Source of the DNA: a virus
Virus record (IMG/VR): IMGVR_UViG_3300042557_001040
Span: 23,970-87,969 of that record
Length of the DNA: 64,000 bases
Direction: 5' to 3' (one strand)
The notes under the pieces are model-generated. The model had not been told where the DNA came from. It saw only the letters and a list, made by a program, of their open reading frames with translations, and did no database searches. Both the position numbers and the translations under genes were made by a program. Position 1 is the first letter of the stretch. Each line of letters starts with the position of its first letter. This document shows, one piece after another, positions 3,831 to 38,981 of the stretch.

Positions 3831-3840
3831 AAAATGTATA

Positions 3841-4842: not shown

Positions 4843-4860
4843 TGGTTAGTTGAAATGGAA

Positions 4861-4893: not shown

Positions 4894-4926
4894 ATCACCA
4901 TCTTAAAGGGGAAACAGCTTAACTGA

Positions 4927-13000: not shown

Positions 13001-14589
13001 GATTCTATATACTTATCCACTTCAATAAGTAATGAGGCATAATTTGGTTTTTCCATATTTTTTGGATCAGATATTTCTTTATGATAATCAGTGATTTCTT
13101 GCATTGCATAATTTAAAAAAGCACCATAGGCAAGTGATGGTCTATCATTTCTAAGATCTGAACCCATCATTGCCATGAGTTCATTTATCTTATCAATCAT
13201 AACATCTTTTTCTATAAATGTTTTTCCTTTACGTATTTTTTCTAAATACTTTTTACGAGCTTCAAATGTGTTAATTACCTTTTTACTCTCATCATACATT
13301 TGAGTAAACTTATCATCCCCATATATTTCAATTTCTGGTTTACTATCTTCTTCACTTAAGAAATCAGGATCATTTACAGGATTATCGATTCCTAATTCTT
13401 TTTTGAGCTCATCAAGTCTATTTCTAGGTTCTAAATCTGTTGGTATAAGTTTATTTACATAAGTTTGATTCATACTAATAGAATGCTGTTCCTCACCCTC
13501 CCACTCAATATCTTTTATTTTTTTATCAACATCCAAATCTAACTTTAGATGTAAAGTGTGAAGTTCAACAACATCAAAACCTTTAAGCTCAATAAGTTTT
13601 TTATATGCCGCTAATTGAATACCATGTTGCTGTCTTGTAGATAAACTTTGCCCTTTAAAAACAGAACCTTCTGCATCATCTTTTATTAAATATTTTTTAT
13701 CATAATTTTCTGATTTAACACTATTTTTAGAAGCTTTTAAATCTACAATTTTTATTTTACCATCAGGTGTTATTACCAAAAGATCAAGTGAGCCAGCTAT
13801 TTTAGAATATTTATCACCAATTGCGGCCTGTGTTACTATAATAGAACCATCTTTAGTAAGCATATTTATATACACTTGAAATAGCCCATAAGCTGTTTTT
13901 AATTTATCATGAGGAATATTGTCAATGTCTTTTACAGCATCTTCAAATTTTTGACCAAGAATAACACCCTGTAAAAGTTTATCAAATGAAGTTCCATATT
14001 CTCTATTAATAGCAAACTCATCATTCATAAGCTTACCTTTGATACCGGTAGTAACAGAAGTGTAGGTTTCACCATCTTCATCTACATAAACATGTTCACT
14101 AGGTTCAAGAACTACAGGATTATCAGAATTTTCTATAAGATCGTTTACAATACGTTTTTGTAATGCGTTTCCTTTTTTACCAGCTTTATTAAGAAATTCT
14201 TTTCTTTCAGGGTCCAGTACAAATGCCACACTGGTACTAACAAACTTTTTTGTAGGATCATCTAACAAATCATTATTAAATATATTAGATTTGGGTTCAC
14301 CATTAGCATCAGCAAAACTGCCAAACATGCTATTTTTTTTAGTAAAGTATTCTTGATACTCTGAGCTATATGCAATACTCCATAAACCAACCGCTATTTC
14401 TTCTGGAGATTCATTAAGCAGTGTCCCATCATCAAGACGATTTTTTAAATAAGGAATTTGATCAAGGTATTTTTTTACACCTTTTTCTTTTACTTTATTA
14501 AGAAGTTCTTTATAAAGTATTGAATCTTCACCATTAGGGGCTAAAACCCTATCCACCTTACCATCTTTTCTATATAATTGACAGGCCAT
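10021..14589 (-). CDS. Giant virion/transcription-module protein with PD-(D/E)XK domain
   Basis: A 1,522-residue protein, last gene of the leftward block, starting 22 nt after the RNA polymerase giant. Residues ~150-350 form a RecB/Cas4-like nuclease segment: a VYVDEDGETYTSVT opening, D269 in AGSLDLLVI, D283-L-K285 in VDLKAS, then a Q.AAYKKLIE helix. The middle is charged and coiled-coil-rich. Near the C-terminus are two apolar stretches (LAELAFLAASFALYGIV and a nearby helix). In crAss-like phages the proteins around the RNA polymerase are long and are packaged and ejected with DNA; this one probably belongs to that set. A nuclease in this position could cut host DNA early or process phage DNA. 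Confidence 0.65.
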   Translation of the reverse strand: MACQLYRKDGKVDRVLAPNGEDSILYKELLNKVKEKGVKKYLDQIPYLKNRLDDGTLLNESPEEIAVGLWSIAYSSEYQEYFTKKNSMFGSFADANGEPKSNIFNNDLLDDPTKKFVSTSVAFVLDPERKEFLNKAGKKGNALQKRIVNDLIENSDNPVVLEPSEHVYVDEDGETYTSVTTGIKGKLMNDEFAINREYGTSFDKLLQGVILGQKFEDAVKDIDNIPHDKLKTAYGLFQVYINMLTKDGSIIVTQAAIGDKYSKIAGSLDLLVITPDGKIKIVDLKASKNSVKSENYDKKYLIKDDAEGSVFKGQSLSTRQQHGIQLAAYKKLIELKGFDVVELHTLHLKLDLDVDKKIKDIEWEGEEQHSISMNQTYVNKLIPTDLEPRNRLDELKKELGIDNPVNDPDFLSEEDSKPEIEIYGDDKFTQMYDESKKVINTFEARKKYLEKIRKGKTFIEKDVMIDKINELMAMMGSDLRNDRPSLAYGAFLNYAMQEITDYHKEISDPKNMEKPNYASLLIEVDKYIESYRGIINAKGVGSKEQQLMLVKLIDTLDDVKESIDNNLESYVKNVIKSNTSRDLTQDELNKIMKEVYDIPAEDYYLGDLATSKDTLLAIADKIYKAAVNKAKDNSESTASKIAQLGNNLLKAFGIKKTTKDFYDFMKVFKNGKFTGRYVSRVGSQYYDKYYEIKNTLREKNGDKKQYIPITDITKASDEDLQFNILLFRDKTAYREFMNAETIGPQGAKDGKYHKYTDFFKTIRDRYQDLVAYSKPDGELFYKWEKKEDVTDEQYEQFRLKYFNEATYWSPQFESDGTFQGRVTLKTNWFVKSEFVEIRDIAEDGTDLRDPKYVKLMNPVTEQEKAQSNFYKGWVEEYQNQLEKLPQDVASAQRGKVGRVRGKFMETLKKNGGSFTKAVAKSLKDFFSTEIYTNQRIVDELGQVENGLPILYVGKLQNEKRVEYLKKELEAFKQKKLEGKISQKEFLEKRNKLKEYIKIEESKIKVEEIEGDLVENLIQFAAMAENFEIMSNIESDLQAIAKIMEDRDYYEIDSLGNKLIRKGSKLNKESEGKAVVKRKENVFAIKRLNKWFKMVYYNNEEFNRTTMALISKRIQNLTSLKGVGFNIFGNINNYVMGRINNSIETAGSLYYDRPAANRAVGEYNKDYLPNIFRGLGEHSDGYQIGKKAKSKYEAIVEYFRMVRHYQKDQGKVDFMSWAYLLQEGGEFNVQSKTGVAITMTRTLKNSKTGETLSVYDAFDFNPNTGELKLKDGFEMSDKERYDLINYILEVNKQIHGNYAFQDRMVIQDHWIGQLAAQFHKWIYPAYKSRFKERYIDENLGTVEGRYVTVLSFLKYVKEAEGTFIEKLRTGWKDMDSVQIKNMYKNLAELAFLAASFALYGIVRGIADGIPPEDKFIKRWLNFLAYQQSRQVKEISTMMPLVGIEEQYQIAKSPFAILTTLKDFGQAVEKSLSLPIPPYEKNYYERGTHKGDLKVWKEWKDVIPALNVLNKWDSYDQVKSFYIK

Positions 14590-14611
14590 TATTTATATTG
14601 ATTTAAAATTT

Positions 14612-17600
14612 TTAGGGTTGTGCGCATCTATCATTTAAAGGATTATCATCATCTAATTTTGTATCATCTGATTTGATACTACCAAATCCCATCAATCTTT
14701 CAAACTCTTTTCTTTTTTCCATATCCGTTATGCCAAGTTTTTCTTCTTTTGACCCAACTGCTGGTACATTTTTACTAGCTTGAGATGGTTTTTCATTATC
14801 ACCCATTCCTAATGCTGCAAGAAATCTATTTCTTAAAGCGGTATCCGTAACACCTAATTCTTTAGCTTTTTCTTCAGTAAGGTTTTCATCAACAATAGGC
14901 GTTTCTCCTAATGTTTCATTTCCTTTTATTTGAGGAGCTGATGATGTAATGTCATATCCTAACATATAAACTAATTGTCCTGGGGTTTTTACAGTTTTTT
15001 TCGCATCATCTGGTATAGCATCCCAGACATCACCTACAAATTTAAAGGATTTACTAGCGGTATCAAAAGTAAAAGTAATGCCTTCTCTAGCGAGTATTTC
15101 TTTTGGCGTACCAGTCACATTTTTAGTAGCAGCGGTTGCTATTTCTTTTTTTTGTGTAACAGATGTTTCTCCTGGTTTAACAAATCCTCTGTTAATCATC
15201 CACATCTCCTCTTTTTCAGGATCGCTAAAAGCTCTTTCATAATAAGGATTATAAGAAGAAGGATTGGTTGTAAGCTTTCTATATCTAGGAAGTTTAGCAG
15301 TATCAGGAATTGGGTCAAAAACCTCTCCTGCCTTAAAAGTTTTTGAAGAACCCTTTCTTTCTATTTTTTGGTATACAGCTTTTACACCAGAAGCAACAGT
15401 TTCCCCAGGTTGAATCATTCTTTTAGGGGAACCTTTAGGTTGTTTTTGTGCTTTAGTAACCGATTTAAGAACAAAGAAAGTGTTTTCAAAATATTTTTTT
15501 CCTTCTGGTTTTATACTTTGTTTTATAATATATGGAAAAACAACCTCACCTTTTTTATTAGTATAAAAACCTTTAGCCCTTAAAGAATCCATATTTTTAG
15601 CAAATCTTTTCTTTTCATCAGGTGAATACTTAAAACTATCTGCCTTGGCTTTAGCTGCCTCTTCTTCTTTTTTAATCCATTCTTTTTTTCCTTCTTCATC
15701 TAATTGAGAAAACTTTTCAGTTTCTTCAGCCAACATGGTATAATAATCAGCATCATCCATCCATGTTATTTCAGATTCTTCTTCTTCAGTGAAAGCCTTT
15801 TGTTTTTCTTTTATACGAGCACCATTGAAAATATCAATTTTTATTTTATCACCGTCTATTACAACAGATTTGGGTTCAAAGCCATCTACATTTTTATTTC
15901 CTACATCTTTGAACTTAGGTTCAGCAAATAGAGTCATACTTCTAACATAATATCCATTTCCAACATGCCTTGTATATATATGCATAAATTCATTAAACAA
16001 ATCATTAGCTGTTAACCCAAATACTTTTTTATACTCTTCATCTATATTTTTTGTTGTGACCATGTTTAATTTCAAAACATCATTAGCTATTCCTGTACTT
16101 TGCATCAAATCTGTAAACATAAAGTTAGGAATAAACTTAATAAAACTATTACTTCTAAACTGACCACCATCTTTTACCAACAGATAATTAAAAAGAGCAT
16201 TAGCCATGTCTCTACCGTTTCTACCATTGCCATCAAAATCAATATCAGATTGATAGATTTCTATAAAACTATCTCTTAATTTTTCTATTTGATATTCATT
16301 AAGTTTAGCCCAAGTGTTAGATTCTAGTTTATTAAATCCATCTTTATTTTTAGGATTGAGTCCAGCCTCTCCTTTAGCATTAACTATGGTGGTAGATATT
16401 ACATTTAAAAATCTTTTGGCAATATAGTTATTTGGAAGTTTTTGTCTAATCGTTCTAATAACATCCACTATATCAGAAAACTTGTCTCCTTTTGCTATAG
16501 CACCTTCATCATATATAAGGGCATTGGTCATTGTAGATAAAGTTCCTGCTCGCCCTCTATCAGCAAGAAATTTTCTATATGCTTTTATAGAAAGATAAGA
16601 AATCAAATCTCTTTTCAAATCTACATTAAATTTATCTTTAAGAGATGCTCTTACACTCAAGTTATCTTTTACAATATTTTCAATACGCTTAAACACACTT
16701 GTTCTTTCCAAGAACATGCTTTTGCTGAGATCATTAATTTGATCAGCTATTTTAATCCATTTAGAAATATAGTGAGATTGTTTAGATTCATCATAACCCA
16801 TGAATACTTGACGTAAATCAAATGGTGGAGGAGTTTTTCTACCTTCAGGTATAAATTTCTCAAAAGCATCATCATTTTGATTTCTTAAACCCAGTTTTTC
16901 TATTTTGTTATTAATACCATCATAGTCTTCCCAAGATGTACCAAGTCCTTTAACAAGCTTAAGTACTTGAGCAACATCAGAAAAGTATTTAGTTTGATTT
17001 GATATCCCTATAAAATCTTCTAATACAGAAGCCTGATATATAGCACTACTCCCATTATTTTTAATATTGGATACCATTATATCATCTGTAAGATCTTCTT
17101 TTACATAGTCATCTCCAGCTAATTTCTTATATTTTTCAAAAAGTTTTTTAGCCACTTGAGACTTGTATATTTTACTTTCCTCATTTGTTTTAATATTATT
17201 TGAAGCTATTTTGGTTAGTTCAAAATACTCTCTTACAGCAGGTTGTAACATTAAAAGAATAGAAGATTTTAAAGGAACACCTTGAGCTACCATATTAGAA
17301 ACATAACCAAGAGCCTCCATGTTAAGACCAAGTCTAGCAGCCAAACGTTCTTTAGCATTATCTGTCATAGCTGATACTAAAGTAGATATAATGTTTGTTA
17401 TACGATCTTCACCATCATATTTACCAGTGGCTGCATTATAACTATTAGAATGTGAATAACTATCAAATGTGTGACCATTTATTTTAATCTTATACATTTT
17501 AACCTTCTTGCCCTTAGCATCTTTAAAAGTGTCTCTAAGGTTAATCTTAAAGTTATTCAGTATGGCATAAGTAAGCATTGAGTTAACAGCCGCACCAATG

Positions 17601-20600
17601 TTTCTAGAACCTTCTTTATTATTTTTAAAAGCTTTGTATTTACCTATAATAGAATCAACATCAACTCCTCCTTCTGTAAGAATATTTTCTATTTCTGTTG
17701 GTAATACTTTTTGTCCATTTTCATTTTCTGTAGATAATAAATCAATAAGATTACCAGCTACATTTGGATCTAATAAATTGGTAAGAGCAGTTAAGGACGC
17801 AACTTCAAATGCTATAGATCTGCTTCCACCTGAAATAACATGTTCATTAGTAAGCATCAATAACTTCTGCTCTAAAATTCTATTATTAAGAACACCATTA
17901 TTAAGTTCTTTTTTACTTTTGGCATAATCTAAAACATTAGATGGAAGTTTTAAAGACCCAAGGGCCTGAGCTATAAGTTTTTGTTCTACACCGTCTAACT
18001 TTTTTACTAAATCTTTAAATTCATTTACCCATTTTTTACCCATATCAATAATAGCTTGACGTTCGTCCGCTGTTATTTTTCCACCAAGTTCTTCACTAAA
18101 ATAAACACTTTCAAATATTCTAAACTCATCTAAATCTTTTGTAAGTTTTTTATACTCTTTATATTTTTTAGATAGTTCTTGATATATAGGATTTGTTTCT
18201 TTTAATTCTTGAAGAACATCTCTAAATGCCTTGTTATTATTTGCATTCCAGCGTACATATTCTTCAAATTTTCCTTCTTTAGAAGTTTCTGTTCCATAAG
18301 GAAAACGTTGACCATCTTTTACATATGTATCATATATGTGCATATACAGTTTATCAATATCAAAGTCAGCACCAGATATTTCTATGAGTTCATGGGGAAA
18401 GATAGCAGTGGAACCATAATATGCTGGCATAAATCCAACAAGTCTAAGGGCTACAAAGCTATGTTTTGCCTGTGATGGGATACGTACACCAAACATTTTA
18501 GCTATGTGATCAGGAATAGGTTCACCTGGCTTTAAGTTAAAGTACTCAGCATAGTGAGCTGGCATAATAAACTCTGTATATCTACCTATAATTTTACCAT
18601 TCTTATCATATTCTGGTACGTTATGTCTAAGATCATCTACATAGATGTCTCCTTTTTTCATTTGCTCAAACTTGCGATCAATACTATTATTCCATCTTTT
18701 AGCATTCTTTATATATCTATTTGGATTTTGTTTAATAACTCTTTCATCTACCACTGTTCCAATAGGATTACCCTCTTCATCATAACGTCCAGTAAATATT
18801 TTAACTACTTGTTTACCGTAATTGGACATCAAGGCAACAGAGTGACCTGGAGTTTTTTCACTCATAACTCCTTTAGAAAAATAAGCTAAAAATAATTGAG
18901 TGTATTTGTCAAGAGTGATATTGTTGTTAAGATTATATTTAGGTTTTCCATCTTCTCCTAAAGAAAAGAAATCAATAAGTTGACTATCTGCTCCTGTAGA
19001 ACGTAATGTTTCTACAGCTCTTTTTTGAAACTTTTGAAGCTGTGGACTTATTTTACCTTGGTCCATAGACTTTCCTAGCTCTGAATAAGCACTGTCTATA
19101 TTAAAGATTTCATCTCTACTTCTTGTATAGTTATTTGTAACACGTTGGTCAACATCACTAAGATACATTTTTTTAATATCTCCAATTGTTAACTGACTAC
19201 CATCTTCTTTAGTGCTTCTACCCATAAAAGTAACAGGAGTAGAATCTTCTTGTTCAGAAAGTATAATCTGTTTGGCCTGACTGGGATCTGTAATTTGTAT
19301 TTTATTAGAAGGGTTAACCAACTGAAGTCTCCAATAATTTGTATCTTGCTTTACAAAATTTTCATCTTTAGCATTTTGAAATCCTAAACTATGATCAAAT
19401 ATATTTCTCTTAATACCCTTACTAGATTCTCTATCTCCAGCAAATACTACAGTATTATTATCTTTTTCAAACTTTTCCATTCTTTCCCTAAGTTCATGTA
19501 ACTCTTCAGAACCAGGAATAGCTACCCACTTACCATTTACTTTCATAGAAGTAAACTCTTTAGTAAGCATTACAGTGGATGTTTTAATATATTGAAGACC
19601 ATCAAAATAAACAAGCTTTTTAGAGTTAAACATTGCTTCCATATCTTTTAACCCACCTGAACCAAAAATTTCTTTTTCAGTGAGTTCTTGACCAGCTTCT
19701 AACTTATCAAGAATTTTAGCAATTGCCGGTGTAAGTTGACCTAAACCATGAAGAGTATATCTCATACTCTTTACAGTTTGATAAGATTGGGCATCTGCTT
19801 TATTTTTTAAACCACCAGCATAGTTAGCTTTAAATTTAGGACTTGTAAAAGTAAGCATGTAACTTTTAGTAAATGCTTCTGTAATACCAAGTTCAGGAGA
19901 TGTTACAACAGAATATAAACTGGGCCCACTACCATTAGCACCTCTAGCACGTTTAATAATATCAATTTCATCTTTAAATGCTTTAGCCTCATCACCATAC
20001 AGTATTTGATTAATAGATAATGTATTAATATAATCATTTATTAATATCTGACCAAGATTATGTCTGAGATTTCCTGGTTTAATGTTTAACAAATCATTTC
20101 TTCTTTCATCTATAACATCCTTACCATTTTCTTTTTTAGTAAAGCCTATCCTTAAAAAATCATCAACAAGATTATTTTGAATTTCTTCTTCATTACCTTC
20201 TTCAGATTTACTTACTGTAACAACACCAAGGTCATTGGCAAGTTTAACAAAATCTTCAATTTGTTTTTCCCAATATTCTTTAATTCTACTATTTATCTTA
20301 GTATTTTTAGAAGCAATATCAAAAGCATCATCTAAACTATCTTGTTCTAATTCATCAGCTAATTCTGTTCCTAGCATATTAGCCATCTTATAGAACTTTA
20401 AACCTCTTGGTTTTTTCTTATCTGTTCTTCTACCATCACCATCTACAGCATAATGATAACCTTGTATTTCACCATCTGGATATATGCCTGATTTTATTTC
20501 AGCTCTTACTTTCTTAATACGATTAAACTCTCTAACTACTTCTTTATTAATAATATTAATAGCCTCTTGACTTAAACTAACCTTCCCACTTGTTGTAGAA

Positions 20601-23600
20601 GTAACCACCTTATTGACCGGTAAAGCAATTGTATCACCTGTATTAGAAGCTTCTATCACTCTAATAAGATGATTGCTAGTCATAAATCTATTTCCATTTT
20701 CACCCCTATGTTCCTTATTATATTGATACAATTCTAATAAAGATATTAAAAACTCACGATCAGAAAAACTACCATAGGTGATACCTTCATTTTGATTAGC
20801 TTGAATTGTTTTATCTTCTATTAGTTCACCAGTCTCATTTTCTTTAAGAATTGAACTCTTCATTCCTTCAATTCTTTGCACTCTAAGATTTCCAAGAAGA
20901 GATTTAAAATCTTCTGAACTTAATAAATGATTTTGCTCAAGAAAATCATCAAGCTTAATTTTATTTAATTCATCTATATCATTAAGAGAATTAATCTTGA
21001 CTAAATGGAATGTAGGAAGCTGATGCGCATACACTAATTCACCTTCAGCATTTCTATAGGATGTACCACTAACCGTTTCATCAAAAACAGCATTACCTTT
21101 AGCTAACTCATTAAGACGAGATATATTACCACCCTCTCCTAAACTGTCTGCTTCTTCTTCACCATCTTCTTCTCCCGTAATGGGCATGTTTTCATCATTA
21201 AGGCTGTCTATATTTTTAGCAAAAGGATTTTCCAAAGCTTGTATAGACTTAACAATAGCTTTTAAACCATTTAAATCCATTGGTCCAACTTCACTATATG
21301 ATTCAGCAAGTCTTCTTTGATTTTCAGTTCTGAGATCAGGTTGCTTAGATGCAGCTATAGAGAATTTAATATAAAGTGGAGATAAGGAAATACCCAAGTC
21401 TTCTTTAAGCCTATTGCTTAAATCTTGAGAAAGATCATCTAATCTTTCATCAGAAAAATATACACCAGGATCATGTGCGCTCAATAGTTCTTGAAATGAT
21501 AAACTTTTTTCCTTAGCAAACTCTCTTCTTTCTTCTTCAGATTTAAGTGCTAAAACAGGAGTTTCAAACTGATGTATATAAGCATTCTGCCATTGTGTAA
21601 ACTGAGTTTTAGCAGCACCCATTCTATTAGCCAACATTAATCTTGTAACCCTACCTTTATTACGAATATCTTTATTCATAAAAATATAATCCACGGTGTA
21701 TTGTTGAAATCCTTTAACCACCATTTGAAAAAGAGTAGCTTGTTTAGGATTTGTAATATCAAAATCACCGGTATTTGGATCTATGACAAGACCAACTTCA
21801 TCAAAGAATTTATTTAAAAACTTACCAGTTTCTGTATTATTGTCTCTTAAATAAAGCAGCCTATTTATAAATTTCTTTTGATCTGTAATATTAGCAACAG
21901 CCTTGAGAATACCACCATAAACCAAATTAGCATTTACAGATTGTATTAGTGGTTCCCCATTTACCATTTCTGTATTTCCAAACTCATCCCTATCTATTAC
22001 ATAAGATGTAGATGCTATGTACTGACGTAAGAATTTAGAAAGACTACCAAATCCTCCAATAGAATGAGTTTCTTTCCAATTATCTGTAGTAACTCTAGTA
22101 CCAAATTCTTCTTCTGTAGTAGTAAACTCATCATCTTCAAGCTCCTGTTGATATCCCATTATATTTAAATGAACATCTACAGCCTCCATCAAAGTTTCCC
22201 TATTCTCTTTACGATAGAATATATTAAACTTTTGATCTAATTTATTCATATAGGCTTTAGCTTGGGCAGGATCTATATCCATCAGCTTTGTCTGTTCATC
22301 ATAATAAAACTCTTTTCTAGAACCTCTAGGGTTATATAATTCTAAAAAGTCATCTATAATACCATTAAGAATTTCTTTTTTATTATACTTTCCAGTTTCA
22401 GTATTAAGTGCTCTAACATGAAACATTGAAGCTATCGTACTAGCTATCTGATCTCCTTCTTGCTGAGGAAGGTATTTGTCTATTGGTATAATATCTCCAT
22501 TTTCATCATCTACATAATCTTCACCTATTTTAATAGCTTTTAATGCAGGTTCATTAATACTAAGAGCATCTGGCTTGGTAAACCTATTATCTTTGATATT
22601 AGAATTTTTATACTTACCTCTGTCTATCTCACGGAATAAACCAGTAAGTTCATTACTTGTAAATTTTCCAAACAGTCCCTTTATGAAATCCCAAATCTTT
22701 TGAAATAAACCACGAATACCTGGAAGAATTTTTTTAGAGTCTTGATTCATTTTCCATTCATCAAACTTATCAGCCATATATTCCTCATAGTATCTATTTT
22801 CTAGCTCAGCATCTGTCATGTCCGCATAAATAGTATGAAGCTCTCGCATTGCTTTAATTTCTGAAGCAAGTGTTTTACCTTCTTTGGCAAGTTCTTTTTT
22901 CACTTCAAGTTTTGCATATGCCAAAAACTTATTTATTTCTTTATCAGTGAGCATTAAACGAAAAACAGCATGAAAAGCCTCATGGTATTTAAATGGACTA
23001 TTCTCACCAACTTCAATACGTCCTCTCACTTGAGTTTTACCATTCTGAAGTTTTTGTAAGTAAGTTAAGAATCTACCTACAGTGATATTACCATTTTTAA
23101 GATTAGTAGCAAGTAAGTCCATATCTTCTACAGATACAATATCACCAAGGATACGACCTACATACTTTTTAAACTGATCAATATTAACCACACTAGTGGC
23201 ATCAAAGGTTGGCTTATTTACCACCTTGGGAGCCATGTTTCTATTTGAATTTCTAAGTTCATTTAGTTTAGCTTTTTCAGCGTTAATTCTATCTTTAAAT
23301 AAATCAACAGCTTCATCATTAGATAATCTTAAAGCTTCACCGGATCTCATTCCAGCCTTTACTTTTTCTTCCAGTATTTTTTGAGCCTCTATTTCTCTTT
23401 CAGCCTCAAGCTTTTTTATATTATCTCTTATTTGTTGAGCAGGGGATAATCCTGTTTCTTCAAGTTTAGTTTTTTCAACAGGAGTTTCTTCTTTTTCTTG
23501 TACAGAGGGGCTTGCCCCAATTCCCATTTCTTTTAAAAACCTAGCTCTTAAATTTTCATCTATTGGTACCCCAGCATTATTTTGCATAGACTGAGCAGGT

Positions 23601-26600
23601 GCTGGCGCCACACCTTTCGTTTGTACACCTGTTTTAATATCAGGTGCAGGAAGACTAAAACTTGCTTTAACAGAAAGAGGTATATTCTTAACCATCTTTT
23701 CTGATAAATTAGTTTTTAATTTTTTAATATCATCATATCCACTAACATCTGGAGTACCTTGTCTAAAGTTTTCTCTAGTTAATTTAAACCCTATAGCGTC
23801 TCTTTGATCAATAACAGCTTTATCATGCTCTTCTATACGTGAATTTATTTTAGATATCAAATCATCAATATCTTTTATGTTTACAGGATCAGTGAGTTTA
23901 CTGCCATATAAACGTATTTTTCTACGTTTAATTTCTTTACCCTCAAACATATTGTAAAAAGTCAATTCCAAATTGCCAGTATCACTTACACTAAAATCAA
24001 TATACATACCTTTCTTTTCGATTGGTACAGATATAAATAAATTAGCAGCTAATTCAGAGTTAAGCTTTTCATTAAAATCTACCTTTTTACGCTGATAAAC
24101 TATTTCTTTTTTATCAGTGAGAGTTTCTTGTAAGTTCTTTTCTTTTGTCTCTTTGGCACGCTCATTAATTTGTTTAATAAAATCATTAAATTTTTCTTCT
24201 TCTAAAACATCTGTATTAAGTTCTACAAATCTAATTCTACCATTATCCATTTTAATAACGGCTACATATCTACCAAGTTGCTGAGTGGCATCTCTTTCAT
24301 TTTTAACTTGTTTTACTTCTTCTTCTATTTTTCTTCTATCAGCACCAAAGGCGTTTGTTATAACATTTTCAGTGTTACTAAATGTATATCCAGACCCATA
24401 GCGTTTAGCGCGATCTAAAATATAATAAAAACCATTAATTGTTTTATTGGGAAGATCTTCAAAAGAAACACCTGTTCCTTTAGGTACAAAATCAAATTCA
24501 CCTGCACCAATTTCAAATGAAAGTATTTTATCCAGTTGTTCTTTAGAAATTTCAATCTCTTGGCCTGGTTTTGCTAAAGAACTTAAAGCAACATATACTT
24601 TTTTAGAATTTTCAAATGAATTTTTAAAATCAAGCATTTGTTTTTCAATACCTCTACCTTTCAAATCAAATATACTTCTAAATTGATTTTTTGTAAGATC
24701 ACTCATTGGTACGTTTACACCACCATTAGTGATATATCTAAGAGTATCATAATTTCTTAAATATCCAATAGGTTCTCCTTTGTATACTATTTGAATTTGA
24801 TATTTTTCAGAGTACTGTATAAGATTTGGATTGGTTTTTTTATCTTTTCCTCCTGCTTCCTTTGAAGAAGCTATAGTTGTATTTTGTTTTATTCTAATAG
24901 TAGTGTTTGCTTTAATATCATTAGCATTAGTTTTCTTTAAGAAGTCGTCCATTCTTGCTTGAGCTTCTGCTTCTGTTTCCCCTTGTTTTCTATGAGGATA
25001 AATTCCACTGAGTTCATTGGTTCTATAAAGTCTAAACACATCTTTATCCACTGGTTCACCAGTGTCATATTTTTCTACTTTTTCTTTTATGGTGTAATTA
25101 CTAAAATCTTTTTGACTTACAATTACAGCATCACCATACTGTCTTACTCTATTTCTAAGAAGAAGTAATTTAATAAGAGGATTATTTTTTTCTTCATCAG
25201 CTTTGGCATAAAAAGGTCCACCTTTTGTATCAACTACAAATTGTTTTCCTGTTCTATTATCTACTAATATAAGACCGGCTCTTATTTCTGTACCTGCAAA
25301 AGGATAGTAAGAGCGATCTTTTTTAAAGTCAGCAGTATCTTTAGCAATAATGGCATCTCTAGCAGCCAAGGCTTGTTCTTTAGTAGAGTAGGTTAAAGCA
25401 ACTGTTTCTTCATTTCTTTCAGACTTTGCTACTTCATATTCTCCATTACTACTAATAATAAATAATCCATCTTTACCACTGTCTACTAACACTTCTCCTT
25501 TTTTCAATGTAGGAGGGGTAAGTTTTCTTTTTTTAGAAGGCAATTCTAATATGTCATGATTATCTTTTCCCGTAGGAGTTTTTTCTTTTTTTAAAGCAGC
25601 TAGTTCTGTTTCAATTTCTCTTGCAATTTTATCCTGAGCATCTAATACTTCACCTGCAGGTAATTTAGAAGCATCTGTCCATTTATTTATTAAACTTAAT
25701 AAATTTTTAGGAACATATTTATCAACTAAGTCCTGAACATCTTTTTCACTTGGATATTCTAATGTGGGTTTATATGTACCATCTGGTTGTTTTTCTCCCC
25801 ATAATGTAGGTTTGTTTGAGTTTCTACTCCAAGTTAAAAGAAAGTCTTTTTTCTCTCCCCTCACCTCAATGTAAAATTGAGTTTCTTGTTCTGCAAACTT
25901 TGCCTCAATTATTCTATCAGTTTTAGCAGCATCTGTAGGCTTAGCTCCTTCTAAAGCTGTTAGTTCTGCGTCAACATTTTTAGAATCAATTTCTCTTTGA
26001 ATTTTATCAGAAAGTATTTGACTATAAGATTTGCTCTTACCATCTATAATTTCATCTTTACCATAAGATGATTCTAATATTTTATCACCATAAAAAAATT
26101 TAGCCACCTGTAAAGCAAGTTTAGCATCAGCTTCTGAATATCCATGCATTACAACTTGATCACTTAATGCAGGACCTTGAACTTCAAGATCTTGAAAAAT
26201 TTTAACTCCTCCGTTATATCCTCTTTTTTGAAGCTCAATCATAAAATCTTTAAACATTTCTGGAGAAAAGTCATTAAGATTTTTTAAAGAGAAATAACTT
26301 TTATGTGTTACAGATTCTTTATCATTTGTTCCATTATTAATAGAAAAAAATAACCAAGAATTAGAATCTTTAGTTCCTGATAAAAGTCTAACATTCTTTG
26401 CAAGATATCTTTCTATTTGCGGCTTATTTACAAGAGATAACATTGCATTATAAAAACTTTCAAATGCATCTTTTGCAGTTTGTGATAAAGACGCTCTATC
26501 AGCTTTAACCATATCTAGTACTTCTTGTACAGATGTTGCATTTCTATGTTTAGGATTTGCTCTTAATTGAGAATCATCTATTTTTAAATAGTTTTTAATA

Positions 26601-29600
26601 GCATAGTCAGCATACTCTTCTCTAGACATTTTAGATAAATCTACACCTTCTGCTTTGGCAATTTTAGCTAACTCATAAGATGCACTCCAACCGAATAGTT
26701 TTTTTCTTCTTTCTATATCAGCTTTAGCATCTGTAACAACAGGAGCTACATCAGGTTTTAATCTACCTTCTTTTATGTATTCATTAAACTGTTCTTTACT
26801 CCATACTCCTTTAGACTTATTTTTTGTATTTTCAAACTGGATATCTCCTTTCTCACTAAATCCTCTAATTACATAGTTTTGTCCAGAGTCAGAGGTAAAT
26901 GTATCACCAACTTTTGGAGTTGTAGAAACAGGAGCTCCTTCTGTTGGGGTTACTGTAGGTTTTTCTGCAGTCTCATCTAATTTATCAGCAACAACTTTGG
27001 CCTCTTCTTCTGTAGCATACCCTTTGGCTACAGTGGCCCCCGTAGGACTAACCACCGTAAATGTTTCATCTTCTTTTACTACAACATGCTTTTTTTCTTC
27101 CTTATCTACATCAGCAGCTTTATAAACTTCATCAATATGATCTTTTTTAAATAATTCACTAACTTCTTTATGAGCAGAAATCATTGAATTAATTACCAAG
27201 TTCATATTATAAGGATCAGCAAGTAAATTTACAGCATCTACATATGCTTTATTATCTTTATTAAGACGAATGTAATCTATGATGTTTATAAAGTTTGCAT
27301 CTACATCTTCTTTAGATACAACAGCCTTATTCTTAGACCTTTCATTATAAAGATTTATAAGATCAGCATAGCTCTCATAAGCTCTTTTTTCAGCAGCAGG
27401 AGAATAAGACTCATCAGAATTATCAACTATATCCTGGTAAGAGCTTTCCCATTTTTTTGCTAAGGCAAGTTCTTTTTTCTTTTGTTTTAATATTTCTTTT
27501 AAATCAGGAGTGAGCGTGTCCGTAGATTCATAGTTTTTAATCTCTGCTTCAAGATTCTTTACATGATCATTAAGTGCTTCTTCACTGCCCATTTTAGTGA
27601 GCACTTCTAAACTTGAAGCACCAATATTTTTATTTTTAGAAATCTCTGTTTGTAAAGAAGCAGCCCTTATAACAGCTTGTTTTGCTTTATGAACATTAGT
27701 AGCAAGTATCTCTATAGCATCTTCTAGTGCTTTCTTTGATATCTTTGCTTGCGCATATTCTTCAGGGGTATTATATTTATATAACTCAGGAAGCACCTTA
27801 TCACCATACTTATCTTTTAAATTTTCATAAGTGGTGTAATATTCATCCATTTGATTTGCAATGTTTTCCATAAAGGATTTTACATTGCCTCTATTTTTTT
27901 CTGTAGCATCAATTCCATATGCATCTTTAAATTCCTCATCTGTCATGTTAGAACCAGCTCTTTTAATAGTGTCTCTAACAGTTTCAAACATGTTTAATTT
28001 AATAGCACTACTTACAGTTTTTGCAAAAGCAGAATCCTTTGCATTATAAAAAACATATTTATTATGATTTTTAGCTGCCTCATCCATTGTCTCAGCAGCT
28101 TTATTATTTATCTTAACATTTGCAATCCACTCTTTTTTAAATTGTGTGGGATCTGCATATAGAGAATTAACAAGAGCAATGCTTTCCTTTGCTCTTTCTT
28201 TTCTTGTTAAATAATCAGGATCTTCTTTTTTCTTTCTACTCTCTTCTATAGACTGATTAACCTTACTAATAATTTTAGTGCCAGGAGATATTAATGCACC
28301 AGTTAACGCGCCCATTAAGAATGTTCGCATACCTTCAGAGCTGGTAATAGGATTTTCTATACTGTCTATAATGCGTTGCATCTTTCCACTATGCCCCTGT
28401 TTACCATGATAAAGATCATAGTAATAGCCGCTTAAACCTTTATTTGAAGCATCCTGTATAAGTTCTTGAACACCTTCCAATCCTTCTATTCTGGTGAGCC
28501 CCTTTCCTAACATTTTAGTAGCTTCCCAACCTGCTTTTGTTTTTCCAAAATCTTGAGCAATACTTCTTACAGCACCTAATTCTCCAAAGAACCAGCTTTT
28601 TGAATATGCTTTAGTCAAATCTTTTCCTGCTACCTTACCTGTCACTTGGAATGCTTCCTCTGCAAGGGGTGCCGCTGCTTCATTAAAAATGTTTCTAGTG
28701 CGACTAAAACTTTTGAACATGTTATTAAACTGTAATCTATTCATTACAGAAATAACACCTACGTTTGTCCAAAAATTGTCATGAGAGGCATCTTCTGCCT
28801 TTTTATTTATTTTTTCAAGGTCGTCTCCATCTGGATTTTTTCCATTGGCTTCTATATATTCATTTACAAGTTTATCTCTTAATTCTTTAAATGTACTAGC
28901 CGCTTCAAATATTGATTCAGAACGTGCCATGTTAAATTCACTAAGTGCACGTTTTACCCCACCTAGAGTAGTCATTGCTAATTGTCCATACCCTGCGCCA
29001 GCTTTACCAAGCTTATAAAGATCTTGAAATCCACTATATAAAGGAACAATAGTTCTAGCAGCATTATTGAATGCATTAGTGACTCTTGCAGAACTAGTTA
29101 CAATTTCTGTAGCTTTGTTAACATCATTAACAATTTCACCTAATGTTGTAGCAGTTTTTACACCTCTTGCAATATTTAATCCTTTTAAACCTGCACCAAC
29201 TATATTTCCAAGACCTGCTGTAAGATATGTTTCTAAAGCAAATTGTGCCATGGCACCTACAGTAAATCCAGCTTGCTGAAACATATTACCAAAGAACTGA
29301 CGATTAAAATATCCATCTTTAGACTCCGCTGTATCAAATATTGCATATTTATTAAAGATGTCTTCCTGTTCTTTAGCTATATCATATCTCTCTTCAGGGG
29401 TTCCCATTAGTTTGGTAGAATCCCATGTAGACAAAGCTTGAGCCATTCTTGCCCATCCTTTCCATCCTTCAGCAAACGTGTTTACAGCAATTTCACCAAA
29501 TCCACCAAGTGCTTTTCCAATAGTATCTCCCCAAGTCATAGCTCTGCCATATCTATATTCTTGTTCAGCACCTAAACTAGGAATATATCCAAATGTTTTA

Positions 29601-30001
29601 AAATCATCTGATTGAACATATCTTTCAAAATCCTCTCCTTTACCAACACTTAATGGTTGGCTTATTGCAGAATAAGTTGGAGCACCATTGATTGCTTCAG
29701 AAAGCTTTTGTGTATTTTTCTGAGGATCAAAATAAAAAGGAGAAACATTCCCCCCACTTCCTTCCAGTCCAGAAGGGTAGTTATTTAAAAGATTTTTTGT
29801 AGCATCTAAGTAAGCATTTGTTTCATTGATCAAATCAGTGATGCTTTTTCCACCTACTGTTTTATAGGGAAAACGTGACTCTATAGATGCTTCATCCATT
29901 AAGTCTTTATTTACAGTATCTGCCTTTCTCTCGTAGTAAGAAAAACCTAAAGGAATGTCAGGCAAACCTATCCCTAACTTTGCTGGTTCTGGAGGATTCA
30001 T
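14612..30001 (-). CDS. Giant virion RNA polymerase polyprotein with HExxH domain
   Basis: A single 5,129-residue frame. The RNA polymerase catalytic loop D-F-D-I-D is at residues 3879-3883, within GADFDIDKLYM and preceded by RIPSQAKHSF and GSTAIFPHEL, the typical context in crAss-like single-chain polymerases (phi14:2 gp66 type). Residues 2340-2344 are HEAFH with a downstream ENRYYEEYMADKF helix, a zincin metalloprotease signature. The N-terminal ~600 residues contain amphipathic/apolar stretches (~240-275, ~562-572) that could cross membranes on ejection; ~600-1000 is charged coiled coil, and a Pro/Thr linker lies near 1014-1034. Three copies of an R..F...(M/L)G.G motif occur (M2159, M5066, M5104). 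By analogy the protein would be packaged, ejected, and transcribe early phage genes. Confidence 0.85.
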   Translation of the reverse strand: MNPPEPAKLGIGLPDIPLGFSYYERKADTVNKDLMDEASIESRFPYKTVGGKSITDLINETNAYLDATKNLLNNYPSGLEGSGGNVSPFYFDPQKNTQKLSEAINGAPTYSAISQPLSVGKGEDFERYVQSDDFKTFGYIPSLGAEQEYRYGRAMTWGDTIGKALGGFGEIAVNTFAEGWKGWARMAQALSTWDSTKLMGTPEERYDIAKEQEDIFNKYAIFDTAESKDGYFNRQFFGNMFQQAGFTVGAMAQFALETYLTAGLGNIVGAGLKGLNIARGVKTATTLGEIVNDVNKATEIVTSSARVTNAFNNAARTIVPLYSGFQDLYKLGKAGAGYGQLAMTTLGGVKRALSEFNMARSESIFEAASTFKELRDKLVNEYIEANGKNPDGDDLEKINKKAEDASHDNFWTNVGVISVMNRLQFNNMFKSFSRTRNIFNEAAAPLAEEAFQVTGKVAGKDLTKAYSKSWFFGELGAVRSIAQDFGKTKAGWEATKMLGKGLTRIEGLEGVQELIQDASNKGLSGYYYDLYHGKQGHSGKMQRIIDSIENPITSSEGMRTFLMGALTGALISPGTKIISKVNQSIEESRKKKEDPDYLTRKERAKESIALVNSLYADPTQFKKEWIANVKINNKAAETMDEAAKNHNKYVFYNAKDSAFAKTVSSAIKLNMFETVRDTIKRAGSNMTDEEFKDAYGIDATEKNRGNVKSFMENIANQMDEYYTTYENLKDKYGDKVLPELYKYNTPEEYAQAKISKKALEDAIEILATNVHKAKQAVIRAASLQTEISKNKNIGASSLEVLTKMGSEEALNDHVKNLEAEIKNYESTDTLTPDLKEILKQKKKELALAKKWESSYQDIVDNSDESYSPAAEKRAYESYADLINLYNERSKNKAVVSKEDVDANFINIIDYIRLNKDNKAYVDAVNLLADPYNMNLVINSMISAHKEVSELFKKDHIDEVYKAADVDKEEKKHVVVKEDETFTVVSPTGATVAKGYATEEEAKVVADKLDETAEKPTVTPTEGAPVSTTPKVGDTFTSDSGQNYVIRGFSEKGDIQFENTKNKSKGVWSKEQFNEYIKEGRLKPDVAPVVTDAKADIERRKKLFGWSASYELAKIAKAEGVDLSKMSREEYADYAIKNYLKIDDSQLRANPKHRNATSVQEVLDMVKADRASLSQTAKDAFESFYNAMLSLVNKPQIERYLAKNVRLLSGTKDSNSWLFFSINNGTNDKESVTHKSYFSLKNLNDFSPEMFKDFMIELQKRGYNGGVKIFQDLEVQGPALSDQVVMHGYSEADAKLALQVAKFFYGDKILESSYGKDEIIDGKSKSYSQILSDKIQREIDSKNVDAELTALEGAKPTDAAKTDRIIEAKFAEQETQFYIEVRGEKKDFLLTWSRNSNKPTLWGEKQPDGTYKPTLEYPSEKDVQDLVDKYVPKNLLSLINKWTDASKLPAGEVLDAQDKIAREIETELAALKKEKTPTGKDNHDILELPSKKRKLTPPTLKKGEVLVDSGKDGLFIISSNGEYEVAKSERNEETVALTYSTKEQALAARDAIIAKDTADFKKDRSYYPFAGTEIRAGLILVDNRTGKQFVVDTKGGPFYAKADEEKNNPLIKLLLLRNRVRQYGDAVIVSQKDFSNYTIKEKVEKYDTGEPVDKDVFRLYRTNELSGIYPHRKQGETEAEAQARMDDFLKKTNANDIKANTTIRIKQNTTIASSKEAGGKDKKTNPNLIQYSEKYQIQIVYKGEPIGYLRNYDTLRYITNGGVNVPMSDLTKNQFRSIFDLKGRGIEKQMLDFKNSFENSKKVYVALSSLAKPGQEIEISKEQLDKILSFEIGAGEFDFVPKGTGVSFEDLPNKTINGFYYILDRAKRYGSGYTFSNTENVITNAFGADRRKIEEEVKQVKNERDATQQLGRYVAVIKMDNGRIRFVELNTDVLEEEKFNDFIKQINERAKETKEKNLQETLTDKKEIVYQRKKVDFNEKLNSELAANLFISVPIEKKGMYIDFSVSDTGNLELTFYNMFEGKEIKRRKIRLYGSKLTDPVNIKDIDDLISKINSRIEEHDKAVIDQRDAIGFKLTRENFRQGTPDVSGYDDIKKLKTNLSEKMVKNIPLSVKASFSLPAPDIKTGVQTKGVAPAPAQSMQNNAGVPIDENLRARFLKEMGIGASPSVQEKEETPVEKTKLEETGLSPAQQIRDNIKKLEAEREIEAQKILEEKVKAGMRSGEALRLSNDEAVDLFKDRINAEKAKLNELRNSNRNMAPKVVNKPTFDATSVVNIDQFKKYVGRILGDIVSVEDMDLLATNLKNGNITVGRFLTYLQKLQNGKTQVRGRIEVGENSPFKYHEAFHAVFRLMLTDKEINKFLAYAKLEVKKELAKEGKTLASEIKAMRELHTIYADMTDAELENRYYEEYMADKFDEWKMNQDSKKILPGIRGLFQKIWDFIKGLFGKFTSNELTGLFREIDRGKYKNSNIKDNRFTKPDALSINEPALKAIKIGEDYVDDENGDIIPIDKYLPQQEGDQIASTIASMFHVRALNTETGKYNKKEILNGIIDDFLELYNPRGSRKEFYYDEQTKLMDIDPAQAKAYMNKLDQKFNIFYRKENRETLMEAVDVHLNIMGYQQELEDDEFTTTEEEFGTRVTTDNWKETHSIGGFGSLSKFLRQYIASTSYVIDRDEFGNTEMVNGEPLIQSVNANLVYGGILKAVANITDQKKFINRLLYLRDNNTETGKFLNKFFDEVGLVIDPNTGDFDITNPKQATLFQMVVKGFQQYTVDYIFMNKDIRNKGRVTRLMLANRMGAAKTQFTQWQNAYIHQFETPVLALKSEEERREFAKEKSLSFQELLSAHDPGVYFSDERLDDLSQDLSNRLKEDLGISLSPLYIKFSIAASKQPDLRTENQRRLAESYSEVGPMDLNGLKAIVKSIQALENPFAKNIDSLNDENMPITGEEDGEEEADSLGEGGNISRLNELAKGNAVFDETVSGTSYRNAEGELVYAHQLPTFHLVKINSLNDIDELNKIKLDDFLEQNHLLSSEDFKSLLGNLRVQRIEGMKSSILKENETGELIEDKTIQANQNEGITYGSFSDREFLISLLELYQYNKEHRGENGNRFMTSNHLIRVIEASNTGDTIALPVNKVVTSTTSGKVSLSQEAINIINKEVVREFNRIKKVRAEIKSGIYPDGEIQGYHYAVDGDGRRTDKKKPRGLKFYKMANMLGTELADELEQDSLDDAFDIASKNTKINSRIKEYWEKQIEDFVKLANDLGVVTVSKSEEGNEEEIQNNLVDDFLRIGFTKKENGKDVIDERRNDLLNIKPGNLRHNLGQILINDYINTLSINQILYGDEAKAFKDEIDIIKRARGANGSGPSLYSVVTSPELGITEAFTKSYMLTFTSPKFKANYAGGLKNKADAQSYQTVKSMRYTLHGLGQLTPAIAKILDKLEAGQELTEKEIFGSGGLKDMEAMFNSKKLVYFDGLQYIKTSTVMLTKEFTSMKVNGKWVAIPGSEELHELRERMEKFEKDNNTVVFAGDRESSKGIKRNIFDHSLGFQNAKDENFVKQDTNYWRLQLVNPSNKIQITDPSQAKQIILSEQEDSTPVTFMGRSTKEDGSQLTIGDIKKMYLSDVDQRVTNNYTRSRDEIFNIDSAYSELGKSMDQGKISPQLQKFQKRAVETLRSTGADSQLIDFFSLGEDGKPKYNLNNNITLDKYTQLFLAYFSKGVMSEKTPGHSVALMSNYGKQVVKIFTGRYDEEGNPIGTVVDERVIKQNPNRYIKNAKRWNNSIDRKFEQMKKGDIYVDDLRHNVPEYDKNGKIIGRYTEFIMPAHYAEYFNLKPGEPIPDHIAKMFGVRIPSQAKHSFVALRLVGFMPAYYGSTAIFPHELIEISGADFDIDKLYMHIYDTYVKDGQRFPYGTETSKEGKFEEYVRWNANNNKAFRDVLQELKETNPIYQELSKKYKEYKKLTKDLDEFRIFESVYFSEELGGKITADERQAIIDMGKKWVNEFKDLVKKLDGVEQKLIAQALGSLKLPSNVLDYAKSKKELNNGVLNNRILEQKLLMLTNEHVISGGSRSIAFEVASLTALTNLLDPNVAGNLIDLLSTENENGQKVLPTEIENILTEGGVDVDSIIGKYKAFKNNKEGSRNIGAAVNSMLTYAILNNFKINLRDTFKDAKGKKVKMYKIKINGHTFDSYSHSNSYNAATGKYDGEDRITNIISTLVSAMTDNAKERLAARLGLNMEALGYVSNMVAQGVPLKSSILLMLQPAVREYFELTKIASNNIKTNEESKIYKSQVAKKLFEKYKKLAGDDYVKEDLTDDIMVSNIKNNGSSAIYQASVLEDFIGISNQTKYFSDVAQVLKLVKGLGTSWEDYDGINNKIEKLGLRNQNDDAFEKFIPEGRKTPPPFDLRQVFMGYDESKQSHYISKWIKIADQINDLSKSMFLERTSVFKRIENIVKDNLSVRASLKDKFNVDLKRDLISYLSIKAYRKFLADRGRAGTLSTMTNALIYDEGAIAKGDKFSDIVDVIRTIRQKLPNNYIAKRFLNVISTTIVNAKGEAGLNPKNKDGFNKLESNTWAKLNEYQIEKLRDSFIEIYQSDIDFDGNGRNGRDMANALFNYLLVKDGGQFRSNSFIKFIPNFMFTDLMQSTGIANDVLKLNMVTTKNIDEEYKKVFGLTANDLFNEFMHIYTRHVGNGYYVRSMTLFAEPKFKDVGNKNVDGFEPKSVVIDGDKIKIDIFNGARIKEKQKAFTEEEESEITWMDDADYYTMLAEETEKFSQLDEEGKKEWIKKEEEAAKAKADSFKYSPDEKKRFAKNMDSLRAKGFYTNKKGEVVFPYIIKQSIKPEGKKYFENTFFVLKSVTKAQKQPKGSPKRMIQPGETVASGVKAVYQKIERKGSSKTFKAGEVFDPIPDTAKLPRYRKLTTNPSSYNPYYERAFSDPEKEEMWMINRGFVKPGETSVTQKKEIATAATKNVTGTPKEILAREGITFTFDTASKSFKFVGDVWDAIPDDAKKTVKTPGQLVYMLGYDITSSAPQIKGNETLGETPIVDENLTEEKAKELGVTDTALRNRFLAALGMGDNEKPSQASKNVPAVGSKEEKLGITDMEKRKEFERLMGFGSIKSDDTKLDDDNPLNDRCAQP

Positions 30002-33113: not shown

Positions 33114-33142
33114 AAAGTTTAAAATTAAACTTTAGAAGTTTA
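33114..33142 (-). promoter_or_regulatory. Recurrent 18-nt element and palindrome between cargo genes
   Basis: The 18-nt element reads TAAACTTCTAAAGTTTAA on the - strand (33142 to 33125), and its first three bases are the stop codon of the 1,333-aa gene. It overlaps a perfect 9-bp inverted repeat (33114-33122 and 33125-33133, AAAGTTTAA type) followed on the - strand by a T-run. Related copies occur at 38982-38999 and 49373-49390. It may be a weak terminator, an RNA processing site or a phage promoter. Confidence 0.4.
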
Positions 33143-36100
33143 TCTTAGAAAAGGATTGTGATAAGCATAGCCCCCATATGCATATGATAGTTGTTGATCT
33201 GCATCTGCAACAGGGATTCTTGTGTTATTTTTTGAAGGATTGTAAGGATAAGTAGTGGCATAACCAGATCTTCTTCCTATCATATTATTCAGTATTGTTT
33301 GAGCGGCTCTATGCTTTTCTTCAGGAGTTCCTTCTATATTCTGAAGAATTTGATTATAGTTGTCTATATAAGCTTTTGCATTTTCAGGAGTGCTGCCACT
33401 AAGTTCTTGTCTTTTCATGGCTTCAAAAGCTGCTCTTCCACCATACGGATTAAACGTTAAAAGACCTGTTTTAGGATTAATAAAATAATAAGGACTTTCA
33501 GTGATGTTCATATTGTACAGTTTTGCAGCATTTGTCATACCTGTACCAAGGGCTTGTGTAAGAGCAGTATCTGCCAATCTTTTTTCTCTTCTGTACTTGT
33601 CATTAATATTCCACCTATTTTCCCTATTTGTATTAACTACATTTGCATTATAAGCTGCCGCATTATTCATAATGTTAGCTAAGTTTTCTTGATACCTGTT
33701 ATATACACCAAGATTTCTTGTGTTAACTCCATTAATAATATTAGCTACATTTTCTCCAGTTTGTCCTTGTAAATAAGAAAGATTTGCAGCTAAACTTTGA
33801 CCAGGAAGAGATTCTTGCAATGCTCTTGCTGCAGTATTAACACCCTGATAGACATTTTGAACTGCTCCTTTCCAATCTTCCAAAGTAACATCTGGAACAT
33901 ATGGAGTGGCTTTTACATAGTCAAATGGTTCTTTTTTAATACCACTTCTATTAAGTAGTGCGTTTAAAGCTGATAGCTTATCTTCAGGAAGCCACCCATA
34001 GGGAGGATTCATAAAAGGAACATTTGTTTGTACAGGAGATACTTTAGGGGCTTCTTCTTTTTTATCAGAAGGTTTTTCTTCGATTTTACCAGTTCCACCA
34101 CCTGTAGGTGTAGTGCTAGGCTCATCTCCTGTATATACATATTCAGGTTCTGTTCCAGGGGTTGTTACAACTTTTCCTTTAGGATCATATAAATCCGTTG
34201 TATATGTTTTTCCATTCCAAACAAAAGTACCAAGACCTTGATTTCTAGCATTAGCAAAAGCTCTATTAAAACTTGAGCTCCCTCTGCTAGGCGCAGCACC
34301 TGCAGCAATTGTTTGAGATGTGCCAGCTACCCCTGGTTTTTCATAAAGATCTTTTATAGGAGTGGGATTGTAACCACCAGGGACACCAGATGCTCTAGGA
34401 AAAAACTTAGCTCTAATTTTTCTTTTATTGTAATCAAATTCTTTTTCAGGAGGAAACTGACTATTCTGAGTGCCTTGATATTTAGGAAGACCACCATATC
34501 TCATTTCTTCTTGTGGCATTTCTTCTTGAGACTGTTGTTGAGGTTGAGGAGATTCTTGACTCATGCCTCCTCCCATAATATTTTCAGCAACTTTGGGAAT
34601 ACCCTGAGGAAATCCTTTCATAGATTCTTGTACAACAGAAAGATAGGCAAGCTTTTCCTCATAGTTGTCTATCATTTTTTTAGCCGTGTTCTTACTTATA
34701 TTGTCAGAATAAGGATCTTGAAGAACAGCTTTATATTTATTTACATCATACTTTTTAGCTATTTCAGCTGGAGTGTAACCTTTCTTAGAAGGAGACATTC
34801 CAAACATCTTGAGAACATTAGGATCTTTAATTATCATCTTCTTTGTATCAGAATAAATAAAGGTTCCTTCTGGTACATTAAGTGGTGTGCCACCTTGAGT
34901 GTGACGTTTGCCTCCAATCTTCATGTGCTCATTCATACCATCTCCATCCATATCTCCATAAGCAGTTTCTCCTTTCTCAGCTTCTATGTTAGCTTCTTCT
35001 CTAGGAACTTCTTGTATTGTATTTGAAGCATTTTCATAAGTGTTGTCTGTCATCTTAGAGTAGGTGTTTCTTTGACCAAGGTCAAAACCATATCCAGATT
35101 GACCACCATATGCCATTTCTTGATTTGGAGTGCCAACAATTCTCACTCTACTCATAGACGGTGTTTCTTCAGAATCAGGTGTTTCAAGGATGCGTATTTT
35201 CATATCTTCATCTGTTTCTCCCCCCTCTTCAGAAGCAGGAAGGTTGTTTTTTATTCTAAAATATTTATCTTGAGCTTTCTTAAGATATCCTCCCCAAGTT
35301 ATTTCATTTCCATAATCCTCTCTTGGAATCTTATTTAGAACTCCAGTTTTACCCTTTAAGAAGTTATTTGTAAAAGTGGGATCATACCAAGCTCCAAATA
35401 TTAAAGAACCATATTTAGGAAGCAAGTCATTAACTAATGATTTAGCAACCTGTCTTTCAAAATTTGGGTCAGTATTATAAGCATTTTCAAACTCATTCCA
35501 ACTCATGGATTGTTTAAAGTGCTTATTAAATAAACCTTTACGAGTACCTTCTACAATACCCCATCTTCCCATAGCAGTGGCTCTTTGACCTTCAGGACCA
35601 ACAAGTTGGGTTCTTCCACCAGTTTTTGATTTTTCTGTAGCAGCTAATGTATCTAATACAGCATCTGCATCCATTTGATTGGCATCTAATACAGTGATTT
35701 CAGAAGGATCAATTATAGTATTTCTATTATACTTTCTTCCTTTAGGGGCAAACTTGTGAGAACTTGCTTCAGAAGATACTGGACCAGAAGAATAAGACTG
35801 AGGAACAGGTGCTTTTTGTTGAACAACAGGCACATTAAAAAAATCAGCAGGAAGAGAAATAGGTGTACTTGGTAAATAAAGATCCCCTGTTTGACGAGGA
35901 ACCTGAAGACCATCTTCTGCATAACTTATTCTAGGATGGAATTGGTTAGTCATCTGACCTTGATTCACTGTATACTGAAGATCAGGATTTTGCCAACCCT
36001 CATTTACAGTCCACATCCCCTTGTTTCTTTTTTCAACAAGTTGATTATCGGGAAGCATGTCTCTTCTATACTTTAAATCAAATTGCCTATCAACGTCTTT

Positions 36101-37141: not shown

Positions 37142-37148
37142 AAGTTTA

Positions 37149-38894: not shown

Positions 38895-38981
38895 AAGAAT
38901 TAGTTTTATGTGCTTTTAGAGAAGCACTATTTGTAATATAATTTAAGCTTTTTTGTTAACATTTTAAAATTTATTATTCAT

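Follow-up and report, generated by a model that had tools for sequence, protein, structure and literature searches.

The window analysed here, a stretch of 64,000 bases, spans bases 23970-87969 of a virus record in IMG/VR that is 87,969 bases long. On its minus strand it carries a giant ORF that opens with an ATG and runs for 5,129 residues without an internal stop, exactly as located in an earlier note on this DNA, made from the sequence alone. The mass of the encoded chain, as an estimate from its length, is about 0.57 MDa. The coordinates of the ORF, of its parts and of its neighbours are given in Table 1. The giant protein, searched in pieces against Pfam and PHROGs, gave no match above the cut-offs, and the window had no match in Rfam.

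Table 1. Features of the giant ORF and of the adjoining genes (positions in the window)
Feature	Residues or length	Position	Strand	Remarks
Giant ORF	5,129 aa	14612-30001	minus	gp47-like and gp50-like (RNAP) parts fused in frame
N-module	1-1005	26987-30001	minus	all helices by prediction; related by homology to crAss001 gp47 (N-terminal part); a unit of exchange
Linker	1006-1414	25760-26986	minus	no detectable relatives; at the recombination joint
Middle region	1415-2205	23387-25759	minus	by position the middle of a gp47-like part; sides with the RNAP lineage
Zincin-like domain	2206-2519	22445-23386	minus	homologous to the crAss001 gp47 C-terminus
HEAFH motif	2340-2344	22970-22984	minus	invariant in 44 sequences
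RNAP N-terminal region	2520-3199	20405-22444	minus	like crAss001 gp50 292-860 (hhalign E=2.1e-6)
RNAP core	3200-4399	16805-20404	minus	resembles phi14:2 gp66, with both double-psi beta-barrels in a single chain
DFDID catalytic loop	3879-3883	18353-18367	minus	by motif and conservation
RNAP C-terminal region	4400-5129	14615-16804	minus	
gp49 / phi14:2 g065 homologue	1,522 aa	10021-14589	minus	separate next gene; gp49 E=9e-32, g065 E=4e-14
Upstream cargo-type gene	1,026 aa	30007-33087	minus	travels with the N-module
Upstream cargo-type gene	1,333 aa	33140-37141	minus	conserved central block and repeated LPK[AY]Q and YGG motifs

The C-terminal half of the protein contains the catalytic loop of an RNA polymerase (RNAP), DFDID, at the residues where the earlier note had placed it and in the sequence context FPHELIEISGADFDIDKLYM. 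The pattern ADFDIDKLYM occurs only once in the 87,969-base record, and DxDxD is invariant across 43 sequences. A search of the PDB with the single sequence returned only an ejection protein at E=0.74, which is not significant, so that a profile was needed. The profile of residues 3200-4399, made from 43 relatives, found 6VR4, the structure of phi14:2 gp66, as the sole significant PDB entry (E=5.7e-33), in two segments (804-1055 and 1322-1789). The RNAP core profile also matched crAss001 gp50 (E=8.7e-32), phi14:2 g066 (1.2e-36) and p-crAssphage gp44 (4.3e-20), among others. The AlphaFold model of the same region (pLDDT 87.5, pTM 0.84) was aligned by Foldseek to 6VR4 with E=3.4e-29, a probability of 1.00 and a TM-score of 0.60 by query length over 1,256 columns; the remaining matches were far weaker and mostly to other two-barrel RNAPs. 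This comparison, which the earlier note had proposed as a check, bears out its identification of a crAss-like single-chain RNAP, with a predicted double-psi beta-barrel fold around residue 3880. Homology and predicted fold together identify residues 3200-4399 as the core of a phi14:2-type virion RNA polymerase.

In the genome of phage cr116_1 (L125, NC_055882) an ORF-bearing element (13905-14747) interrupts the RNAP gene inside the catalytic loop, the exon ending in ...GSDFD. This element has matches to group I introns that are below the Rfam gathering score (E=9e-7 and 5e-6).

The part of the protein preceding the RNAP is related to gp47 of crAss001. The profile of the N-module (A4) matched residues 405-695 of gp47 (E=1.6e-8; hhalign E=6.8e-8) and that of the zincin-like domain (A5) residues 2154-2295 of its 2,341 (E=6.9e-16). 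AlphaFold predicts the N-module to be entirely helical, in an only moderate model (pLDDT 69, pTM 0.43) for which a fold search of the PDB gave no match. In BFVD this model had significant matches, with low TM-scores, to crAss-like structural and RNAP-associated proteins, and Foldseek matched it to the ctbg_1 'RNAP associated protein fused to zincin protease' (E=7.3e-6). By sequence, the N-terminal part did not reach p-crAssphage gp45, and the N-terminal 2,133 residues had no match among 50,697 phage records. The coiled coils described in the earlier note are present as long predicted helices, but its membrane-active-looking helices proved to be weak, the mean Kyte-Doolittle value being at most 1.24 in any 19-residue window. 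For the N-module, transmembrane helices are likewise unsupported, no classical one being found with these windows.

An HExxH site upstream of the RNAP loop, already noticed in the earlier note, is HEAFH (Table 1). It belongs to a YHEAFH that is invariant in 44 sequences and is followed by an equally invariant EE (positions 207/208 of the aligned segment), which is a candidate for the third metal ligand of the domain. The match of this domain to the Pro-Pro endopeptidase 6FPC was marginal (E=0.044), and a Pfam search with every sequence in the zincin and N-module alignments gave scattered chance matches and no peptidase family. The conserved residues suggest that the zincin-like domain is probably a metalloprotease.

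A single profile spanning the joint between the two halves matched crAss001 gp47 up to residue 2295 of 2,341 and then gp50 from residue 292. These coordinates indicate that the parts are joined end to end, presumably near residues 2400-2540. As judged from these homologies, residues 1 to about 2520 correspond to gp47 and about 2520 to 5129 to gp50, and the giant protein is an in-frame fusion of both.

The gene neighbourhood is like that of phi14:2 and crAss001, with IHF, tail tubular, muzzle-type and cargo genes. The IHF, tail tubular, muzzle-type and gp40/g074-type genes form a block, as in the order Crassvirales, and the RNAP gene block adjoins the tail and cargo genes. Matches of the structural block to phi14:2 are weak but clustered (g073 E=3.4e-10, g072 1.1e-5, g071 2.2e-5, g074 9.2e-7). 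The crAss001 major capsid protein was not found by a protein search of the 88-kb record, which is possibly a fragment.

The gp49 homologue contains an exonuclease-like stretch (residues 147-350; phrog_298, E=3e-11). The same stretch resembles residues 1713-1849 of crAss001 gp47 (E=2.9e-5), which suggests the transfer of a nuclease domain from one cargo protein to another.

In the proteins of 1,333, 581 and 1,046 aa encoded at 33140-42130 (minus strand) we observed five copies of LPK[AY]Q, against 0.01 expected by shuffling, and seven of YGG, against 1.5 expected. The longer form [KR][IV]RIT..LPKAQ is also present in relatives L092, L094, L103 and L104, and no LPK-type motif is found in the giant protein. 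These repeats are possibly a packaging or docking tag of the cargo proteins. Further along, two large proteins of 1,286 and 539 aa (53335-58830, minus strand) are encoded by genes with tandem repeats and had no match in PHROGs; the smaller has long Thr/Ser-rich linkers (TTTSTTSTT...). They are perhaps tail fibres or adhesins.

The crAss001 proteins gp47, gp49 and gp50 each have a homologue in the window. In crAss001 they are encoded by three genes, with gp47 on the opposite strand, whereas in the window gp47 and gp50 share one ORF and only gp49 is separate. Gp66 of Cellulophaga phage phi14:2 has in common with the giant protein the RNAP core fold, the sequence, the DxDxD and the position in the transcription block, but it is a protein of 2,180 aa that is not fused to a gp47-type part. 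In p-crAssphage (Carjivirus communis) a giant RNAP fusion, gp44, and an RNAP-associated zincin protein, gp45, annotated as an RNAP-associated protein fused to a zincin protease, are adjacent and co-directional. The fused joint is however a different one, gp50 and gp49 being united in gp44 (4,070 aa) and the zincin protein remaining separate.

The same fusion as in the window is found in at least two published gut phages, the Suoliviridae cr50_1 (KNV26_gp059, YP_010110216.1, 4,774 aa) and cr1_1 (KNV31_gp076, YP_010110695.1, 4,551 aa). Along their chains YHEAFH (at 1665 and 2001, respectively) is followed by DxDxD in the form G[SA]DFD[IV]D (its G at 3152 and 3443), with a spacing of 1,487 and 1,442 residues, compared with 1,539 in the window. 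In both a separate gp49 homologue comes after the giant, as in the window. Nevertheless the sequences are very divergent from that of the window (RNAP profile E=4e-16 and 2e-27), and their N-terminal parts had no match to the N-module profile. In the public records these giants are annotated as 'DNA helicase' (NC_055868, 65825-80149) and 'hypothetical protein' (NC_055873, 64854-78509), labels that are apparently wrong or missing and that may be the reason why the fusion looks unfamiliar.

Thermus phage P23-45 carries its virion RNAP within a protein of similar size, gp96 (5,002 aa; PMC10770324). There the RNAP is N-terminal and fused to the tail tape measure protein, whereas in the window it occupies residues 3200-4399 of 5,129; a P23-45-type structure, 8h2m, gave only a weak Foldseek match to the RNAP core (E=0.026). 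A tape-measure RNAP fusion of this type was rejected on the position of the RNAP, and the matches to tape measure proteins that BFVD gave for the N-module were not significant.

Giant proteins have been described in the crAss-like transcription apparatus by Yutin et al. 2021 (PMC7886860), and a review names RNAP genes reaching about 6,000 aa as a crAss-like hallmark (PMC10136315). Since cr50_1 and cr1_1 have the same architecture, and in view of the gene lengths given in that review, the giant RNAP fusion belongs to a kind already known and does not represent a new system. The contrast drawn in the earlier note, of functions split in other crAss-like phages and fused here, is right for crAss001 and phi14:2 and does not hold in general; nor is this phage special among crAss-like phages, as p-crAssphage fuses gp50 with gp49 and the two Suoliviridae match its architecture.

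We consider it very likely that the giant protein is a gp47-type and gp50/gp66-type cargo and transcription fusion of a divergent environmental crAss-like phage, which would be packaged and injected and would transcribe the early genes. Virions of crAss001 contain gp47, gp49 and gp50 by mass spectrometry, and these cargo proteins, whose place of storage is probably the capsid, are expected to exit through the tail partly unfolded (PMC10172136). In phi14:2 the RNAP transcribes the early genes (PMC7886860), and the record of this phage notes g065, g066 and g067 as present in the virion. By analogy, the chain of about 0.57 MDa would be packaged in the capsid and would leave through the tail, partly unfolded, together with other cargo proteins; its C-terminal half would then refold in the host, where it would transcribe the early genes of the phage as the DNA enters. 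As the N-module shares its inheritance with the upstream cargo proteins rather than with the polymerase, its most likely role is one alongside these proteins, in packaging or ejection.

Cleavage of the chain may occur, either before it is packaged or afterwards. One way would be a polyprotein whose own zincin cuts it, in cis or in trans, at two places, the linker and the vicinity of residue 2520, thus freeing the RNAP from the cargo part. The invariant HEAFH and downstream EE suggest that the site is probably active, and the zincin lies directly upstream of the RNAP both in the clade of the window and in Suoliviridae. Moreover, both joints are natural points of division: in L092 and L094 the N-module is a gene of its own followed by zincin and RNAP, and in L090 the gene boundary falls between the gp47-like and gp50-like parts, so the parts can work unjoined. 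However, the zincin of crAss001 stays on gp47 although the RNAP is a separate gene on the other strand, and phi14:2 g067 is devoid of any HExxH, from which it follows that cleavage of a fusion is not the general role of the zincin. No cleavage motif was identified, and we regard such self-cleavage as unlikely.

Returning to the fusion protein, its two ends were found to have different relatives. Compared with L012, L020, L025 and L057, the window protein is 31-48% identical in the N-module and 45-73% identical between approximately residues 1400 and 4700. With L090-L095 the identity is 46-62% in the N-module and afterwards 23-38% or undetectable, and the upstream 1,026-aa gene, and largely also the 1,333-aa gene, side with this second group. 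The trees agree with these values, the window grouping with L090, L092 and L094 in the N-module tree (100/100) and with L012, L020, L025 and L057 in the RNAP tree (98-100/99). A first AU test on the RNAP tree included the very long branches of L092 and L094 and was uninformative (p-AU 0.20 for the N-module grouping); it was replaced by a rerun without them, in which the N-module grouping was rejected (p-AU 1.6e-5). With the N-module data the RNAP grouping was rejected as well (p=0.005 without the L090 group, 1.4e-8 with L090-L094).

If there had been no crossover, very unequal rates, with a fast RNAP in L090-L095 and a slow N-module, would be needed to make the gene appear chimeric. Such rates would fit the failure of the RNAP tree to reject a grouping of the window with the long-branched L092 and L094, but the conflict persists when these branches are removed, and the upstream genes side with the N-module; this explanation is very unlikely. 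On the phylogenetic evidence the giant gene is a chimera, with the N-module and the upstream cargo genes from one lineage and the zincin-RNAP part from another. This is most simply explained by a crossover, in either direction, that took place within the ORF at about residues 1005-1415, where the linker lies. In the lineage that shares the N-module of the window the genes are split. L101, with identities of 39% in the N-module and 21% in the RNAP, looks like a second case. The gp47+gp50 fusion itself being already known, the modest novelty here is the chimeric gene.

A further source of free RNAP would be an internal translation start, yielding the RNAP half on its own in addition to the full chain. 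All five close relatives share Met codons at 2385, 2395, 2409 and 2615, but three of the four are within the zincin domain and the fourth is beyond the mapped joint, and we judge such a start highly improbable.

The fused ORF is not confined to this record. Zincin and RNAP profiles fell on one ORF in 82 distinct IMG/VR contigs, each counted once, and the 59 closed ORFs with both have 3,136-5,461 codons (median 4,640). Equivalent giants from other metagenomes include L012 (4,751 codons), L013 (4,743), L020 (4,791) and many more; in the first four relatives the RNAP part is 63-68% identical and the fused frame is kept as far as the contigs extend. A wider scan, based on an alignment, yielded 79 loci, and 32 were obtained when the N-terminal part was used. 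Since the patterns of the first of these scans were confined to the zincin domain, forms with zincin and RNAP split were detectable too, and three contigs (L090, L091 and L095) have the N-module and the RNAP on separate ORFs. Given this recurrence the giant ORF is real, neither a chance frame nor a frameshift or assembly artefact. Frame changes of the opposite kind do occur in relatives, inside the RNAP of L066 (13564-13603) and the gp49 homologue of L004 (18837-18846), as sequencing errors or programmed shifts, but the fused ORF recurs across many metagenomes (82 contigs) and the architecture is repeated in the genomes of cr50_1 and cr1_1, so that there is practically no chance that an error of sequencing or assembly joined separate genes here, the event which the earlier note had named as fatal to its reading.

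One of the most abundant orders of phages is marked by giant virion RNA polymerases, and such a chain would have to be packaged, passed through a narrow tail and folded again. In this clade, as far as can be read from the sequences, the domain order is constant and the gene boundaries are variable, one order being cut into genes at different joints. We are tempted to go further and picture a self-maturing train of swappable cargo, in which the zincin would cut during or after ejection to free the polymerase and the front parts, which serve ejection, would be exchanged by in-frame crossovers inside the ORF. This is distinctly unlikely; if true, the covalent state would be nearly neutral and the gene boundaries would float between several joints. 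The chimera, whose front tracks the cargo proteins and whose back tracks the polymerase, provides a sequence-based argument for an ejection half and a transcription half, and the natural split and fused versions offer material for experimental comparison.
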